Positions 280 to 30,376 of a stretch of DNA of 31,404 nt are shown here, piece by piece. Source of the stretch: a virus. The stretch is from IMG/VR virus record IMGVR_UViG_3300017971_000621, positions 1 to 31,404 of that record; one strand, given 5' to 3'. Numbering within the stretch: position 1 is the first letter of the stretch; every line of letters starts with the position of its first letter. The notes under the pieces are model-generated. The model was not told the DNA's origin. It saw only the letters and a program-made list of their open reading frames with translations, and searched no databases. The translations under genes were made by a program, and so were the position numbers.

Positions 280-1152
280 TTATATATCACCGTCTCTTAG
301 TTTCATGCTCTTCAATCGTTTTCCAAGAGTCGTTAGCCCCTCTATATGTTTATCATTATATTCGTCGAGGTCCTGGATACAATCAACCTGCGTAATGACA
401 CATATATCTTCATCATCACCACCAAGGTCATGGATAGCATCTACTATCTTTGTAATCCTGGTGATGGCTTCCTCTGGCTCATGAATGATTGCCACTTGAT
501 CGACATTACCGCCCATCGATGCTGTTATCTCATCGGCCTTTGAGGCGTAGGCCTTTGATAAAGGTGTCTCCTCTTTGACAACTCGCATACCAGGTCCTTT
601 CTGGTTTTCATTCCACATTTCATACTCAGAATATGTCCCGTTGAACTGTTTAGGGAATGCCATTCTAAGAGCTTGAGCCTCAGCAACCTTTTTAATCATG
701 GTCTCAGGCTTATCTGCCCAAACACCATGTTTTTGAATGTACTCTTCAATATTTACCGAAACATAAACAGGTACCGATGTAGATTTTTTATAGACCGTAC
801 ATATAGCCCCTATAAGATCACCTCTATTTTTTAGAGCGTATTCATGGGTGACTGCCCCATTAGAAACCTTGAGAGTATCATTTGAATATATAGAGCTTAC
901 CGTGTGACCATCGTAGTCTTTATTTTTCACTGCAAATATTCTATACCCGTCTCTACCTATGAAAATCTGCGCAGCAGCGGTCCCGTATTTTACTGCCCAT
1001 ATTTCTTTTAGGAACGGGTTCAATCCACTTGCCTTTCCTATCTCAAGAAACGTGTTCCATTCTGAATCATTAAGGCTTTTCCCATATATTTCTTTGACAC
1101 ATTTAAGGTTTGATTTATCTTCCCAAAAGGTAATTTCATTACTCATTTTCAT
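280..1152 (-). CDS. bet: Single-strand annealing protein, Red-beta/RecT (phage Bet) family
   Basis: This 290-aa protein matches the Bet branch of the RecT/Red-beta superfamily: an N-terminal helical segment with LNPFLKEIWAVKY, then FIGRDGYR (the family's G-R-D-G core strand region), and KPETMIKKVAEAQALRMAFP near residue 150. Such proteins coat single-stranded DNA left by a partner exonuclease and anneal complementary strands. The partner exonuclease is two genes upstream in the same operon. The acidic C-terminal third (after about residue 190) is variable in the family. The start overlaps the upstream small gene by 14 bases, implying translational coupling; a second in-frame ATG two codons later (MSNEI) is possible. 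Family assignment is strong; the mechanism is from family knowledge. Confidence 0.93.
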   Translation of the reverse strand: MKMSNEITFWEDKSNLKCVKEIYGKSLNDSEWNTFLEIGKASGLNPFLKEIWAVKYGTAAAQIFIGRDGYRIFAVKNKDYDGHTVSSIYSNDTLKVSNGAVTHEYALKNRGDLIGAICTVYKKSTSVPVYVSVNIEEYIQKHGVWADKPETMIKKVAEAQALRMAFPKQFNGTYSEYEMWNENQKGPGMRVVKEETPLSKAYASKADEITASMGGNVDQVAIIHEPEEAITRITKIVDAIHDLGGDDEDICVITQVDCIQDLDEYNDKHIEGLTTLGKRLKSMKLRDGDI

Positions 1153-1324
1153 ATTCCTTTAAAATCTTTTTAGCTTCTTTTTTATATTTCTTAACATTGA
1201 GGCTTAGAACTCTTCCGCAATCGATGTTAAAGACATTTTTCTTAATAACTTCACTATCAAACATGAAGGGTGTCAGTCCATGCTTTGATGCACAATCGTA
1301 TATGTTTTTAATATCTCTATTCAT
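1139..1324 (-). CDS. Small basic protein of unknown function, 61 aa
   Basis: The frame sits between the exonuclease and annealing-protein genes and is coupled to both: its ATG overlaps the exonuclease stop (TAATG) and its end overlaps the annealing gene by 14 bases. The product is lysine-rich, especially the C-terminal helix (KKYKKEAKKILKEYENE), and has two cysteines. I do not recognise a domain. Its place between two partner enzymes suggests an accessory role in recombination, which is only inference. The perfect packing between real genes supports that it is translated. Confidence 0.7.
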   Translation of the reverse strand: MNRDIKNIYDCASKHGLTPFMFDSEVIKKNVFNIDCGRVLSLNVKKYKKEAKKILKEYENE

Positions 1325-2280
1325 TATAGGAACCTCATTGGTCGTGTTTGTGATTGCATTACATATTGTTGGTATAGTTCTGGCTTATCGTTCTTGAAGC
1401 TTTTTGTGTCGAACCTATTAGAAGTCTGTGGCTTCCATGTTACGAGGCGCTCACCTTCCATATTAACAAGAGTTGTCTTCTCATTTAGGCTTTGGGCGAT
1501 CTGAGCTTTAACCATTTCGTCTTGATCCTTTAAAGCTTTGATCTCTTTGTTGATTGTCTTGTGTTGCTCATAGAGATCAATTGTTGTTTCATCGGCAATG
1601 ACGGCTTCATCAATGATCTCTTCAACTGAAATGTTATTCTCTTTTATGTTAGTGGCAGCGGGTGGAATGTCTTTTTCAACGTGCTCTAGCCAGAACTCTT
1701 TTTCTTTTTGAATAATCAAAGATTCTAGTTTGGGATTTCGTTTATAGAAAAATTCCTTAAGTTGTGGTCCACCAAATCCTTGGATCAAAACAACGCATGG
1801 GAACGTTTCGTATTCTATGCCAAAGAATGACTCAGCAATAATACAGTTGTGGGCACATTGTAAGAGATATTCAGTCGGCATTTCGTCCGTTCCTTCATCA
1901 CCCCAACCCTTTGCGTTTGATGTGTATTTGATTTCTCCGACGATGCTTCTATACTTTGACATGAAGTCCAAGTTGCAGCGCATCCATGGGTAATCTTTAT
2001 GAACCATCTCAAGATCAGAAGCGGGTTTCTCTAGTGTGAGACCTTTTTGATCTGCGTACATTTCTCTGATGAAGTCCTCTAGGTAATCACCAAGGGCAGT
2101 ATTCATATTGCCGTTAAACGGTTCTGAATAACCTTTCTTATCTTGGTATATATCAAGAGGTGTTTTGTAGCGTGATTGTCCAAGAACGGCTGCGGCATCG
2201 CTTCCACCAATTCCTTTGTTTCTATTTTCTTTCTGTTCTGGCGTTAGGGCCGTGAACTTTTTGAAATCTTTAATTTCCAT
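1324..2280 (-). CDS. YqaJ-type viral recombinase / lambda-exonuclease-like alkaline nuclease
   Basis: This 318-aa protein has the PD-(D/E)xK nuclease layout of the YqaJ/lambda exonuclease family: GIGGSDAAAVLG at residues 23-34, a helix with E68, D105 in CNLDF, the E116-I-K118 catalytic strand in GEIKYT, and a Q141 helix (YLLQCAHN). These enzymes degrade one strand of duplex DNA from ends and hand the remaining strand to a RecT/Bet-type annealing protein, which is encoded just downstream. The last third (about 230-318) is a helical extension with a predicted coiled coil, ending in an Arg/Pro tail. Start and stop both overlap neighbouring small genes. Confidence in the nuclease family is high. 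Confidence 0.92.
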   Translation of the reverse strand: MEIKDFKKFTALTPEQKENRNKGIGGSDAAAVLGQSRYKTPLDIYQDKKGYSEPFNGNMNTALGDYLEDFIREMYADQKGLTLEKPASDLEMVHKDYPWMRCNLDFMSKYRSIVGEIKYTSNAKGWGDEGTDEMPTEYLLQCAHNCIIAESFFGIEYETFPCVVLIQGFGGPQLKEFFYKRNPKLESLIIQKEKEFWLEHVEKDIPPAATNIKENNISVEEIIDEAVIADETTIDLYEQHKTINKEIKALKDQDEMVKAQIAQSLNEKTTLVNMEGERLVTWKPQTSNRFDTKSFKNDKPELYQQYVMQSQTRPMRFL

Positions 2281-3984: not shown

Positions 3985-4123
3985 ACAATCTGTCATCATT
4001 AATCAAGATAAAAAATCATTAATCATTGATTATTTTCACACAACGCGTGACTCTGTAAGCACAGAGAGGCTTCGCACCGCGTTGTCATACGCAATTCTAA
4101 CAACAGGAAACATATCTTTATGA
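3977..4123 (+). CDS. 48-aa leader ORF coupled to the replication gene
   Basis: The ATG overlaps the end of the preceding small ORF and the TGA overlaps the initiator start as ATGA (4120-4123), a typical translational coupling junction. The peptide is short and unremarkable (MIRQSVIINQDKKSLIIDYF at the start). Its coding DNA contains the AT-rich direct repeats and the strong stem-loop at 4040-4085, so either it is a leader peptide whose translation opens that structure to control the initiator, or the frame is incidental to a functional RNA/DNA element. Confidence 0.5.
   Translation: MIRQSVIINQDKKSLIIDYFHTTRDSVSTERLRTALSYAILTTGNISL
3997..4085. promoter_or_regulatory. AT-rich direct repeats plus strong stem-loop before the initiator gene
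   Basis: CATTAATCA occurs at 3997-4005 and 4017-4025, exactly 20 bases apart, the second running into the dyad AATCA-T-TGATT (4021-4031). Then ACAACGCG (4040-4047) pairs perfectly with CGCGTTGT (4078-4085), enclosing a perfect CTCTGT-AAGC-ACAGAG hairpin (4051-4066). This could be an initiator binding region or an RNA switch for the initiator gene 35 bases downstream. Confidence 0.5.
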
Positions 4124-5322
4124 GTAATTTTAAAAATGAAACATCATTCTATAGAGAAGAAAAAAATAGTGATAATCCCTATGCAATGATTAGTAAAATG
4201 TGCCTTCAAGATACTCGACTCTCATGGAAGGCAAGGGGATTACTAACCTACCTTTTATCTCTTAAAGATGATTGGAAAATCGTTAAATCTAACCTTGTAA
4301 AGCAGGCACCTGATGGCATGGATTCTTTAGTGTCTGGATGCAAGGAATTAGAGAAATTCGGTTACATGGAATCCACACAACTTCGTAACAAACTAGGTCA
4401 AATTCTTGGTTATAAAACGGTTGTTCGCGAGAAACCTATCTTAAAAGAAGATTCCTCTCAAACCGTTGATAATAAAGGGATTGACCCAGAACGGGAAAAT
4501 CCGGTTATGGATAATCATAATATCGACAGTTCCAACGAACAAGAAAACCGTCAAACCGTTGATATCAAACGATCCTACCCAGAACGGGAAAACCCTGAAC
4601 CGGATAATCCCGTGCTAATAAATAATAATTTTAATAATAATTCTTCTTCTTCTTTTGATAATAAAGAGAGCACCCATTCGGAAACGTCCGCTCGTTCCTC
4701 GCTGCCGGAAGAAGGAAATTTAAAAGATAATTTTAAGGATGAAGATCGTACCTCTCAGGATAAAATTACGAGCAAGGTATCTGATGAGAGATCGAAAACG
4801 GTTATGTCTTACGATCATAAGCCGAAAACTGGTAAGTTTCTAACTTTGGATAGGGTTCCTAGTTCTTGGCTTGAGTCAGCACAGAAGCGATTTAGGATTA
4901 AGCCAGATAAGGTTAAGGCCGTTGAGGGCGCTTTCTTGGAGTATTATATCAGGAACCACACCCCAAGATCGTTAACGACATGGGAAAAGCTTTGGTCTGA
5001 ATATGTTGGGCGTAGAACCTCTATGGTTCCAACAGACTTTGAGCCTCCAAAAAAGATCAAGGAATCAGATACCCATCAGTATAAAAAACGTACAGGTATT
5101 GATGCTAAAATTTGTGATATCATTAAGGAAAAGATAGGCCCAGCTAACTTCTATTCTTATATCGAGCATGGGAGTTTTGAAGAGGTTGATCCTAAAAAGT
5201 TGAAGTTTTTTGTAGCTACAAGCATGGCTTATGAATGGTTTGAGGATAATGTTTCAAGCATTCTTAATAGTTTTGACTATAAGGTAATTGCTCATGAAAT
5301 AACAGGAATGAAATCCTCATAG
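4120..5322 (+). CDS. Phage replication initiator: N-terminal helix-turn-helix, C-terminal DnaA domain-I-like
   Basis: Residues about 1-100 match the helix-turn-helix of phage replication (lambda O/DnaD-type) proteins: SWKARGLLTYLLSLKDDWKI, then a recognition helix and CKELEKFGYM. A polar linker follows (about 105-225) containing a 31-residue in-frame duplication (QTVDNKG...PEREN and QTVDIKR...PEREN) and an Asn/Ser run. A middle segment (about 240-310) is helical and basic. Residues about 325-395 resemble DnaA domain I (IIKEKIGPANFYSYIE, then LKFFVATSMAYEWFEDNV), the part of DnaA that contacts helicase and other partners. I infer that it binds an origin and recruits host DnaB. The DNA of the linker holds iteron-like repeats. 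The start overlaps the upstream ORF (ATGA). Confidence 0.75.
   Translation: MSNFKNETSFYREEKNSDNPYAMISKMCLQDTRLSWKARGLLTYLLSLKDDWKIVKSNLVKQAPDGMDSLVSGCKELEKFGYMESTQLRNKLGQILGYKTVVREKPILKEDSSQTVDNKGIDPERENPVMDNHNIDSSNEQENRQTVDIKRSYPERENPEPDNPVLINNNFNNNSSSSFDNKESTHSETSARSSLPEEGNLKDNFKDEDRTSQDKITSKVSDERSKTVMSYDHKPKTGKFLTLDRVPSSWLESAQKRFRIKPDKVKAVEGAFLEYYIRNHTPRSLTTWEKLWSEYVGRRTSMVPTDFEPPKKIKESDTHQYKKRTGIDAKICDIIKEKIGPANFYSYIEHGSFEEVDPKKLKFFVATSMAYEWFEDNVSSILNSFDYKVIAHEITGMKSS
4458..4672. repeat. Iteron-like direct repeats and AT-rich tract inside the initiator gene
   Basis: Two blocks repeat with an exact 93-base offset: TCAAACCGTTGAT (4458-4470 and 4551-4563), CCCAGAACGGGAAAA (4485-4499 and 4578-4592) and GGATAATC (4509-4516 and 4602-4609). 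They are followed at about 4616-4672 by a run composed almost only of A and T (AATAATAATTTTAATAATAA). Iterons then an AT-rich tract within the initiator gene is the layout of the lambda origin. The offset is 31 codons, so a coding duplication alone could also explain it. Confidence 0.55.
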
Positions 5323-5420: not shown

Positions 5421-5882
5421 ATGATAGAGAAGGAATTGCCATACCCTCCGAGCATAAACCACTACTATGCCAGGCAGAAAAACGGAGCCGTGTATATAAA
5501 CCAACAGGGGAAGGGCTACAGAGCAGCTGTGATGTATAATTTCAGACATTCAAAGCCCATAGAAGGAAAGCTTAAGTTACACATAGATGTTTTCCCGCCG
5601 GATAAAAGAAAAAGGGACCTCGATAATATCAATAAATGTCTCCTGGATTCGCTGCAAAGTGCCGGGTTAATTAAGGATGATTACGATATTGACCACTTGT
5701 CAATGAAGAGATGTGACGTTGTAGAAGGTGGTAAAATTATTATCAAATTAGAACCAATAAAAGTTGATAACTCTATTGATAATAGTATAGAATCACATAG
5801 CATAGTAGAAGAAATTAAAGCGCTAGACTTAAAGCGCGAGAAACTAAAGAAAAAATTGAAAGAAATGGGAAGCGATGACTGA
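5421..5882 (+). CDS. rusA: RusA-family Holliday junction resolvase
   Basis: Residues 1-110 follow the RusA family: the N-terminal PYPPSINHYY, the strand with DVFPPDKRKRDLDN carrying D66 and D68, then LLDSLQSAGLIKDD with D86/D87, the three acidic positions expected for metal-dependent cleavage. RusA homodimers cut four-way junctions symmetrically to let branched phage DNA be packaged. The C-terminal tail (about 115-153) is an added charged helix, not part of the usual ~120-residue enzyme. The start follows AGGAAGAAT; the end overlaps the small terminase gene by eight bases, tying junction processing to packaging genes. Confidence 0.9.
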   Translation: MIEKELPYPPSINHYYARQKNGAVYINQQGKGYRAAVMYNFRHSKPIEGKLKLHIDVFPPDKRKRDLDNINKCLLDSLQSAGLIKDDYDIDHLSMKRCDVVEGGKIIIKLEPIKVDNSIDNSIESHSIVEEIKALDLKREKLKKKLKEMGSDD

Positions 5883-8318: not shown

Positions 8319-10814
8319 ATGATGGCAACAATAGCAGAAGACATCGTTAAGTTCTGGGATGACCCGTATAAGTTCGTCATATACGCTTTCCCATGGGGAG
8401 AGCCAGGAACACCACTAGAGAAGTACGATGGGCCGGACAAATGGCAGAAGGAGCTTCTCAATCTCGTAAGGGATGAGATAAGAGCTGGTAACCCTCAAGC
8501 TATTCAGATGGCCGTCACAAGTGGGCACGGGGTGGGAAAAGCGCAACCTTCAGATACAATTATAGAGACACCAAAAGGTCATAAACGGTTTGGAGACCTC
8601 GTTGTAGGCGATGAAATCTTTGGTTCTGATGGTAAGTCTCAGAAAGTTATAGCTATCCATGAACAGGGCGTAAAGGACGTCTACCGCGTAACATTCAATG
8701 ACAGAAGATCAACCCTTTGTTGCGCAGATCATCTTTGGCAAGTCACTACACAGGTTGATAGGAAAAAACATAGAGGCCATAGGGTGGTTGACACAAAAGA
8801 AATCAGTGAGAATCTCCACCTCTCCTATCACGTTCCTATGTGCAAACCTGTAGAATATGAGTGCAACGAAGAAACCATTCTGAACCCTTATTTTATTGGA
8901 TATTTATTGGGCAATGGAAGTTTCACCACAAACACAATACATGTGTATTCCGCTGAAATTGGGCATCATGATTATATAGAGACTCTCTTACCAGAAGGAT
9001 GTTCCTTCCGTGGTAAAAAAATGAAATACAAGCATATTTCTTCTGGACCTAATGCAAGGCCTGGATCGAATAAGGTTCTTAATGGGCTCAGATCTCTAGG
9101 CCTTATGGGGTCCTCTTGCGATAATAGGTTTGTTCCTAACGTATATAAATACAATAAATCTTCCGTAAGATTAGAAGTATTACGTGGTCTCATGGACAGT
9201 GACGGAACAATAGCACCAAGGACATCTGATGGCCGTAAGGGATATTATGTCACTTTTTCGACAACTTCAAAAAGTATTAGAGATGATATCATCTGGATTG
9301 TTAGGTCTCTTGGCGGAAGGGCGAACTATTCTAAATTAGGACCCATCACTACCAAATTAAAAGATGGCCGCATCATAAAAGGTAAGCTTGACGTTTACGG
9401 TATTAAGATAAATCTGCCAAACAATATAAACCCTTTTAGGCTTAAAAGAAAAAAGGATATGTACAATGATTATGTTGCCACAGTAAAACGAGAGCCACAT
9501 AATCGTATTAAAAGAATTGAGTTCGTAGGCAAAGCGGATTGTCGTTGTGTAACAGTCGAAAACAAAGATGGTCTATACCTAGCCAATGATTTCATCGTCA
9601 CTCACAACTCCTCACTCACCTCATGGATCATCCTTTGGTACATCTCTACCCGTCCTAACCCTCAGATTCTCGTAACAGCCAACACATTAGCACAGCTTAA
9701 CACCAAGACCTGGCGTGAGCTATCTAAGTGGCATCAACTCGCTATCAACCATGATTGGTTTGAGTGGACAGCAACGAAGTTCTACCTTAAAGAAAAGCCT
9801 GAGACATGGTTTGCGGCAGCTCTCCCCTGGTCTGAACATCGGAGTGAAGCCTTTGCTGGTATGCATGAAGAGAACGTTCTTGTTATCTTTGATGAAGCGT
9901 CAGGTATTGCAGATAAGATATGGGAAGTTGTAGAAGGGGCCATGACAACGGAAGGGGCCATGTGGTTTGCTTTTGGTAACCCGACCCAGAACATAGGGCG
10001 CTTTCGTGAATGCTTCCGTAAGTTCAAGCATCGTTGGAAGCAGTTTAGAATTGATAGCCGAACGGCAAAGATGGCTAACCAAGCCCAGATTGAACAGTGG
10101 AAAGAAGACTATGGAGAGGACTCCGACTTCTTTCTTGTGCGTGTTAAGGGAGAGTTCCCAAGCCGTGCAGCCATGCAATTCATCCCGTCACACCTGGTTG
10201 AGGAGGCCATAGAACGCAATGCAGCAGATCAAAAAGATTTCCCTTATATTGTTGGCGTTGATGTGGCTAGGAGTGATGGTGACAACAGCGTTATTTGTGT
10301 TAGGCAAGGTCGGCGTTTGCTCGTACTTAACAAATATACGGGACTTAACGGAGTTCAACTCACTCATAAGATAGCTGAGATAGCGTCTTCCTTCCCAGGC
10401 TGCACCATCTTCATTGATGAAATAGGTGTTGGGGCAAGTGTGGTTGACCACTGTAAGCTACTAAACATTAGGTTCATTGGTGTTAACTCTGGGGCTGCTC
10501 CTGATAACCCAATGCTTAAGAATCACAGGGCGCAAATGTGGTACAATATGCGTGAATGGTTATCAGAAGGGGGAGATATTCCCAATGATCCAGACCTCAT
10601 TAAGGACCTCATAGGACTTCAATATGACTTCGAAGCATCAACTGACAAGCTCATCTTAGAAAGCAAGAAGGATATAAGGTCACGGCAGGGCTCCCCTGAC
10701 TGTGGTGATGCTCTAGCCCTAACGTTCTCTCAGAAGGTATTACCTCCTAAGCTTATGGTTCAAAAGAGAGCACCAATCCAACAACAACAGAAGTGGGACC
10801 CATGGCACGTGTAA
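8319..10814 (+). CDS. terL: Terminase large subunit precursor with in-frame intein
   Basis: The 831-aa precursor holds a complete ATPase-nuclease terminase interrupted by 356 intein residues (75-430); the spliced protein would be 475 aa, normal for the family. The Walker A motif is assembled only after splicing: GHGVGK (to K74) joins S431-S. Walker B is VLVIFD525-E526, followed by the coupling segment FGNPTQNIGRF. The nuclease domain has D648 (GVDVARSDGDNS), D700-E701 (FIDEIG) and D797 (CGDALAL). It would power DNA into the prohead through the portal encoded downstream and cut the concatemer. Two ATGs (8319, 8322) are possible; the AGGG spacing favours 8322. Residue numbers here count from 8319. 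Confidence 0.95.
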   Translation: MMATIAEDIVKFWDDPYKFVIYAFPWGEPGTPLEKYDGPDKWQKELLNLVRDEIRAGNPQAIQMAVTSGHGVGKAQPSDTIIETPKGHKRFGDLVVGDEIFGSDGKSQKVIAIHEQGVKDVYRVTFNDRRSTLCCADHLWQVTTQVDRKKHRGHRVVDTKEISENLHLSYHVPMCKPVEYECNEETILNPYFIGYLLGNGSFTTNTIHVYSAEIGHHDYIETLLPEGCSFRGKKMKYKHISSGPNARPGSNKVLNGLRSLGLMGSSCDNRFVPNVYKYNKSSVRLEVLRGLMDSDGTIAPRTSDGRKGYYVTFSTTSKSIRDDIIWIVRSLGGRANYSKLGPITTKLKDGRIIKGKLDVYGIKINLPNNINPFRLKRKKDMYNDYVATVKREPHNRIKRIEFVGKADCRCVTVENKDGLYLANDFIVTHNSSLTSWIILWYISTRPNPQILVTANTLAQLNTKTWRELSKWHQLAINHDWFEWTATKFYLKEKPETWFAAALPWSEHRSEAFAGMHEENVLVIFDEASGIADKIWEVVEGAMTTEGAMWFAFGNPTQNIGRFRECFRKFKHRWKQFRIDSRTAKMANQAQIEQWKEDYGEDSDFFLVRVKGEFPSRAAMQFIPSHLVEEAIERNAADQKDFPYIVGVDVARSDGDNSVICVRQGRRLLVLNKYTGLNGVQLTHKIAEIASSFPGCTIFIDEIGVGASVVDHCKLLNIRFIGVNSGAAPDNPMLKNHRAQMWYNMREWLSEGGDIPNDPDLIKDLIGLQYDFEASTDKLILESKKDIRSRQGSPDCGDALALTFSQKVLPPKLMVQKRAPIQQQQKWDPWHV
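8541..9608 (+). other. Intein in terminase P-loop, class 3-like, with LAGLIDADG endonuclease domain
   Basis: The element starts at Ala75 (AQPSDTIIETPKG, block A) and ends ANDFIVTHN with Asn430, followed by Ser431. It has no Cys/Ser/Thr as residue 1. Instead it shows the Trp-Cys-Thr set described for class 3 inteins: W140 in ADHLWQVTT (block B), C410 in RCVTVENKDGLYL (block F) and T428 in VTHN (block G). In class 3 inteins the block F Cys starts splicing. Between the splicing halves are two dodecapeptide motifs, FIGYLLGNGSF (about 195-202) and LRGLMDSDGT (about 290-297), of a LAGLIDADG homing endonuclease. The first lacks its usual acidic residue (N199), so cleavage may be lost. Confidence 0.93.
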
Positions 10815-29094: not shown

Positions 29095-29505
29095 TCAATA
29101 CCTATCAAAATATTTATCAACGCTGTCTGCGTTATGTTTTGGTTGTTGTGCTCGTTGGTTCTCTAGTTCCTTTGGTCTGTTCATTACTTTAAGGTCACCA
29201 TTTTGCTTACCAATGATGATATCGACATAAGTTTTTTTAACACCTTTTTTATCCTCTGCATCACGGTAGGTGAGTTTTCCTTCTGCATAAACCATCATTC
29301 CTTTTTTTAGGGACTTCAAGGCGTACTTAGCGAGGTGTTCGTTAAACACGATTACACTGTGCCATTGAGTTGTTTGTTTGAGTTCACCGCTTTTATCTTT
29401 AAAATTTTCTGATGTTGCTATGGATAGCTTCGCGTATCCTGCGGGTGTTTCCTTTGGGTCTTGTCCTAAGTGACCAACTACCATTATTTTATTTAAATGT
29501 GCCAT
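29095..29505 (-). CDS. ssb: Single-stranded DNA-binding protein
   Basis: The OB-fold of bacterial SSB is clear: MAHLNKIMVVGHLGQDPKE at the start, LSIATSE, the WHSVIVFNEHLAKYA strand and helix, and LKKGMMVYAEGKLTYRD. Length is 136 aa. The C-terminus ends DKYFDRY instead of the acidic DDDIPF-like tip through which host SSB recruits partners, so it may not contact host repair proteins in the usual way. It would protect single strands made by the phage exonuclease and during replication. Confidence 0.93.
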   Translation of the reverse strand: MAHLNKIMVVGHLGQDPKETPAGYAKLSIATSENFKDKSGELKQTTQWHSVIVFNEHLAKYALKSLKKGMMVYAEGKLTYRDAEDKKGVKKTYVDIIIGKQNGDLKVMNRPKELENQRAQQPKHNADSVDKYFDRY

Positions 29506-29516
29506 TTCTTTACCTT

Positions 29517-29807
29517 CTATGCGCTTCTTAATAACCCGTGTGGGTCATGCTTTTCTTTTATATTGTAGTTTGTTCCTATCCTTTTGTGTGCGCTTTTTCT
29601 CCTTTTAAGAATATCTTTTATCTTATCTTCTACCTCTCTTACATTTTTAAAAGCGAATTTCTTTGTTGTTCCTTTTGTCCCGATGCGTCCATAGATGGTA
29701 GTTAACATCCAATAGTTAAATAGGTCCTTTTCAACATCCAAACGATAGAACCTAAAGTGATTGCGTTCCTCGTTCTTAGCCTCTAGCTCTAATGATATGA
29801 TGCTCAT
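29517..29807 (-). CDS. WGR-domain protein, 96 aa
   Basis: The sequence NHFRFYRLDVEKDLFNYWML, then YGRIGTKGTTKKFAFKN and a lysine-rich helix, is a stand-alone WGR domain (here Y-G-R), the nucleic-acid-binding fold first named in PARP enzymes and common as short bacterial proteins. The C-terminal 20 residues are basic. Its ATG overlaps the recombinase stop (ATGA), so the two are coupled, and SSB follows 12 bases later. A role in binding DNA ends or nicks is inference from the fold. Confidence 0.8.
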   Translation of the reverse strand: MSIISLELEAKNEERNHFRFYRLDVEKDLFNYWMLTTIYGRIGTKGTTKKFAFKNVREVEDKIKDILKRRKSAHKRIGTNYNIKEKHDPHGLLRSA

Positions 29808-30376
29808 TGGTCACCATGCATGGACCTACCGCCTTTGAAGTGGCTGTAAAACGTGGCGACTGATACACCAATATGTTTGCATATATCTTTAACAATCATC
29901 TTGCCATCTTCAAGAAGTGTTGTTGCCACCTGTATCTTTTCCTCTGTCATAACCCTTGGTCTTCCACCGACCCGTCCCCTTAGTCGTGCTGCTTGAAGTC
30001 CGGCGTTAACTCTTTCACGTATAACGTCACGCTCGAACTGAGCTAAGCTTGAAAATATATGGAAGATAAGGTTACCCATTGCGCCACTTGTGTCTATGGC
30101 CTCAGTTAAGGAAACGAAAGTTACGTTTCTCTTATCTAACGATTCGACAGTTTCTATGAGTTGTTTTGTTGACCTTGCCAATCTGTCTAGTTTCCAAACA
30201 ACGAGTTCACCACCATCATTGCAAAGTGAAAGTGCTTCTTTTAATTGTGGTCGATCTCTTTGAGCGCCGCTTGCTTTTTCCAATAGGATTTTTTCGCAGC
30301 CGTATTTTTTAAGAGCATCTATTTGAAGGTCGAGAGATTGTGATTTGAGCGATACACGTGCGTATCCAATTTTCAT
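29804..30376 (-). CDS. Serine recombinase, resolvase/invertase family
   Basis: A full-length small serine recombinase (190 aa): GYARVS with R7 and nucleophile S9, LVVWKLDRLARS with R65 and R68, FVSLTEAIDTSGAMGNLIFH, the long E helix FERDVIRERVNAGLQAAR, then GRVGGRPRV and a C-terminal helix-turn-helix (about 144-180, DICKHIGVSVATFYSHFK). Enzymes of this size resolve multimers or invert segments and do not usually integrate phages. No target site is certain; possible half-sites lie upstream at 30462-30485. First gene of a four-gene leftward cassette. Confidence 0.92.
   Translation of the reverse strand: MKIGYARVSLKSQSLDLQIDALKKYGCEKILLEKASGAQRDRPQLKEALSLCNDGGELVVWKLDRLARSTKQLIETVESLDKRNVTFVSLTEAIDTSGAMGNLIFHIFSSLAQFERDVIRERVNAGLQAARLRGRVGGRPRVMTEEKIQVATTLLEDGKMIVKDICKHIGVSVATFYSHFKGGRSMHGDQ

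Follow-up and report, generated by a model that had tools for sequence, protein, structure and literature searches.

A probable class 3 intein with a LAGLIDADG domain at the Walker A motif of an epsilon15-like phage terminase

The mycobacteriophages Bethlehem and Catera carry characterised class 3 inteins. Inteins of this class are marked by a Trp at B:12, a Cys at F:4 and a Thr at G:5 and do not need a nucleophile at residue 1 (PMC5222942; PMC7664689), and their +1 residue is usually Ser or Thr (PMC5222942). Both P-loop terminase inteins, one of them between Lys and Thr, and class 3 inteins have been described in mycobacteriophages (PMC5050341). Solved examples of the class are the DnaB1 inteins of Mycobacterium chimaera (6rix) and M. 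smegmatis (6bs8), the latter also lying in a P-loop, that of the helicase (PMC6195587).

We analysed a stretch of 31,404 nucleotides from an IMG/VR virus record (IMGVR_UViG_3300017971_000621), which we call the window. It contains an intein that is like the two DnaB1 inteins in its Trp-Cys-Thr triad, His B:10, THN end, Ser at +1 and HINT fold. However, those are mini-inteins without an endonuclease and sit in a helicase, whereas the window's intein has an endonuclease domain and sits in a terminase. The mycobacteriophage intein TerL1-a (PMC5050341) is like it in site, lying in a terminase directly behind the Walker A Lys as annotated. In Acinetobacter phage TaPaz, a terminase annotated as containing an intein is interrupted at the same Walker A position, and the TerL intein of Bacteroides phage BS-TP3 is also annotated after the Walker A Lys. 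The TaPaz and BS-TP3 inteins, about 31% identical to the window's, have the W, C and T and both LAGLIDADG motifs as it does. The extein families of TerL1-a, TaPaz and BS-TP3 differ from the epsilon15-like terminase of the window. Inteins in terminase P-loops and class 3 inteins in phages have both been published before, and the window's intein is an ordinary example, one that leaves what is known of inteins or packaging unchanged.

The intein and its host terminase

The open reading frame at 8319-10814 translates without an internal stop into a precursor of 831 aa (Table 1). The intein translation starts with AQPSDT and ends with FIVTHN, and it is flanked by GHGVGK upstream and SSLTSW downstream, where the first codons are TCC TCA (SS). 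The cut falls between K74 and S431, inside the Walker A motif GHGVGK-S.

Table 1. Features of the interrupted terminase gene, in window positions; residues are numbered along the precursor unless marked as intein residues.
Feature	Position	Strand	Basis
N-extein, terminase residues 1-74, last motif Walker A GHGVGK	8319-8540	+	alignment with L002, a relative whose N-terminus is uninterrupted
Intein assigned to class 3, 356 aa, A75-N430	8541-9608	+	translation, homology, predicted fold
Intein residue 1, Ala, block A:1, no N-terminal nucleophile	8541-8543	+	translation
Block B H138-L-W140, His B:10 and Trp B:12 (Trp codon TGG, 8736-8738)	8730-8738	+	H in 93/93 and W in 89/93 aligned inteins
LAGLIDADG homing endonuclease core, intein residues about 115-242 (limits approximate)	8883-9266	+	profile match and predicted structure
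Intein N125 (AAT) within GYLLGNGS, at the first LAGLIDADG catalytic Asp position	8913-8915	+	alignment
Second LAGLIDADG motif LRGLMDSDG, catalytic Asp (intein D221) intact	9180-9206	+	alignment
Block F C410 (intein C336; TGT), Cys F:4, predicted initiating nucleophile	9546-9548	+	93/93 aligned inteins
Block G T428-H429-N430, Thr G:5 (ACT, 9600-9602), penultimate His, terminal Asn	9600-9608	+	alignment
C-extein S431-V831 and stop codon, Ser+1, remaining ATPase and nuclease domains	9609-10814	+	phrog_5902 and phrog_2 matches

By sequence similarity, the host protein is an epsilon15-like terminase large subunit. The C-extein matches the PHROG terminase large subunit families phrog_5902 (E 6e-60) and phrog_2 (E 2e-41), and the protein has a Walker A motif and sequence similarity to both the ATPase and the nuclease. 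It is 42-43% identical to the terminases of epsilon15 and phiV10, or about 40-44% when related podoviruses are counted.

L002, the closest relative that spans the insertion point, shares 73% identity with the window's C-extein, and its site is uninterrupted, reading VTSGHGVGKSSMTSWIILWY. We compared 82 terminase relatives, those with a readable P-loop, and found the site empty in 80, with Ser, Thr or Gly following the Lys. In the other two an intein occupies it: L058 has one of 320 aa, and in L055 merely its THN and the following S remain, at the contig edge. With 80 empty relatives and two occupied ones, inteins turn up here and there among these terminases but always at this precise position, the pattern that homing would give. 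The insert is not there by chance, because so many relatives read through the site and because the intein has full-length matches among phage inteins. The window adds a clean and very probably class 3 intein in the P-loop of a terminase like that of epsilon15, and together with its relatives, with and without an intein, it documents sporadic presence at a single site. Another intein-free relative, BK063671.1 (L005, 54% identical over the C-extein), is labelled as a Methanomicrobiales virus yet has an annotated endolysin, so its host label may deserve a check.

Class, fold and endonuclease domain

Very probably, the element is a class 3 intein that is mobile and includes a LAGLIDADG endonuclease, and it occupies the common site of phage TerL between the Walker A Lys and the Ser or Thr. 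The residue that starts it is an Ala and not a Cys, Ser or Thr nucleophile. In a search with the intein alone, the best PDB sequence matches were 6rix (3e-8) and 6bs8 (2e-7), and the HxW, Cys and THN were aligned in both. W140 lies two residues past His B:10 and aligns with the Trp of these structures, C410 aligns with their catalytic Cys, T428 is in the THN, S431 supplies the Ser at +1 and the His-Asn end is also present. The Pfam model PF14890 (Intein_splicing) and the NCBIfam C-terminal model stayed below their cut-offs for this intein, which we read as divergence.

We aligned 93 inteins of phage and viral-contig origin, among them the one in the window. Cys F:4 and His B:10 are present in all 93, Trp B:12 in 89 and Thr G:5 in 92, where the frequency of the TH, like that of the second LAGLIDADG motif, is an upper estimate because the retrieval patterns favoured both (one of them included 'TH'). 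The residue at -1 in the extein is Lys in 89 of the 93, mostly from a P-loop GK. Among 11 phage-record inteins found with tblastn, outside the retrieval patterns, the W and C are present in every one and the T in ten, the last having Ser instead. In four of the aligned inteins (L105, L110, L112 and L113), B:12 is Phe instead of Trp, with Cys F:4 and Thr G:5 retained; they are possible relaxed variants of the triad.

The preliminary description had placed 356 residues at 8541-9608 between the K and S of Walker A, beginning with Ala, ending in THN and containing W140, C410 and T428, and had called them a class 3-type intein. We found the placement correct to the base and the residues correct to the codon, and translation with the intein removed gives the 475-aa terminase that it had expected. 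The class is supported at each sequence position that can be checked, with W140, C410 and T428 falling on the triad of the solved 6rix and 6bs8 when aligned.

The AlphaFold2 model of the intein, built with 45 sequences, has a mean pLDDT of 94.3. Foldseek gave PI-SceI, the yeast VMA intein, as its top match over the whole length (4.9e-18). To the splicing domain it matched 6riy, 6rix and 6bs8, all class 3 DnaB inteins, at 2.1-2.8 Å. From the model and these matches, the intein consists of a HINT splicing domain and a LAGLIDADG endonuclease domain. PI-SceI shares this architecture, but it is a class 1 intein in another extein and has both catalytic Asp residues.

The endonuclease domain has the two motifs of a double-domain fold, FIGYLLGNG and LRGLMDSDG (PF14528, 1.5e-5), and its presence explains why the element is there, by homing. 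The preliminary description mentions neither this domain nor the Asp to Asn change in it. Its homology to the LAGLIDADG family is clear and its activity is doubtful, as judged from the motifs: the second retains its Asp, but the first has Asn, N125, at the position that aligns with PI-SceI D218 in a profile alignment. We take D218 to be one of the two catalytic aspartates of PI-SceI, from general knowledge of LAGLIDADG enzymes. Losing one of these residues normally abolishes double-strand cleavage. We found no literature on PI-SceI D218 mutants and have drawn the effect of the Asp to Asn change from the family in general. With N125 in place of a catalytic Asp, this copy is probably unable to make the homing double-strand break and so to home on its own. 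The first-motif position is Asp in 85 of the 93 aligned inteins and Asn in seven, the window's among them, and given these seven, endonuclease decay may be recurrent. The probable loss could be a snapshot of the homing cycle, with splicing kept and mobility fading. N125 is one transition away from Asp, and it is possible that it is an assembly or sequencing error.

Splicing and the alternatives

If the intein follows known class 3 chemistry, as its residues suggest, C410 would attack the K74-A75 bond to form a branched thioester at block F, and the acyl chain would then pass to Ser431. Asn430 would cyclise and so free the intein, after which K74 would be joined to S431 by an acyl shift, restoring GHGVGKS and the 475-aa terminase.

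Any intein in an essential site has to splice. The preliminary description held that the terminase is inactive until the intein splices and that this gives the phage a gate on packaging. From the split between K and S of Walker A, it is reasonable to infer that splicing must come before ATPase activity, and the unspliced precursor is likely to be without it; the gate goes beyond the evidence. Such a lack of ATPase activity in the precursor has been shown for Pyrococcus RadA with its P-loop intein, according to the citation of that work in PMC6195587. Most likely, the window's intein has been maintained as a selfish homing element, for which efficient splicing would be required, packaging being essential.

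A rival reading would make the intein a conditional switch, with redox-responsive splicing via C410 and a terminase active only under suitable conditions. There is a precedent in Msm DnaBi1, a class 3 P-loop intein which H2O2 blocks reversibly via a Cys48-Cys118 disulfide (PMC6195587), and the window's intein has further cysteines near its active-site residues in sequence (intein C60, C61 and C334). However, the window's intein has a Val where the redox partner Cys48 would be, the three further cysteines are variable (60, 46 and 27 of the 93 aligned inteins), and around the gene start and the intein we saw no promoter-like sites beyond chance, so we consider the switch improbable. We also found no evidence in this analysis of slow splicing or of any regulation or timing of it, and we think it very improbable that a homing-deficient (N125) class 3 intein is retained for timing the activation of the packaging ATPase through its rate of splicing or its redox sensitivity.

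The selfish class 3 intein also has to be weighed against a dead insert, either a degenerate intein that does not splice or the product of a chimeric contig. The Asp to Asn change in the endonuclease and the source, a contig of an uncultured virus, fit such an insert, but the reading frame is open, the junctions are exact and all splicing residues are retained. Its codon usage and GC do not stand out (GC 39.5%, with 40.3% over the contig) and an insert in Walker A that could not splice should be lethal, so we give this explanation little credence. Class 2 inteins may also start with Ala, which would allow Ser431 to attack the N-terminal junction directly with the W, C and T incidental; against that, the full signature stands at the class 3 positions and is near-invariant in the aligned relatives, and the nearest solved inteins by sequence are class 3, which makes a class 2-like intein hardly credible.

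Relatives, origin and contig surroundings

Similar inteins occur in at least 771 phage records, and phage inteins match the whole of the window's intein with identities of 30-36% (lowest E 2e-47). Single-sequence patterns in IMG/VR matched no close intein relatives and we used alignment for the relatives instead. Six more phage contigs have related terminases with such inteins (L058, L115, L127, L131, L137 and L164), and the intein of L119 is identical to that of L115. These seven class 3 inteins form one well-supported clade, with the window's intein outside it. They are found only in terminases of the phrog_5902/phrog_2 type, start with Leu, Ala or other residues, and mostly have an intact GDG.

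The L058 contig (IMGVR_UViG_3300004770_001310; intein at L058:868-1827) has a terminase of the same family, with 47% identity over the C-extein, and its intein is at the same site with the W, C and T present. However, that intein is 32% identical to the window's, starts with Leu, has its endonuclease GDG intact and does not group with it in the tree. In the tree of 93 inteins, the window's is on a long branch without a well-supported sister. The intein's GC (0.395, against 0.473 for the extein) is near the contig average and its codon score is no outlier among the other genes of the contig; from GC and codon usage there is no signal of recent transfer.

The contig has a head module of podovirus type with a GH108 endolysin, and to either side of it lie a RecT annealing protein, a YqaJ exonuclease, a RusA resolvase, an SSB and a serine recombinase, at 280-2280 (-), 5421-5882 (+) and 29095-30376 (-). 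A 400-aa protein at 4120-5322, likely a replication protein, has a weak match to a DnaA N-terminal domain (4e-4, below the Pfam cut-off).
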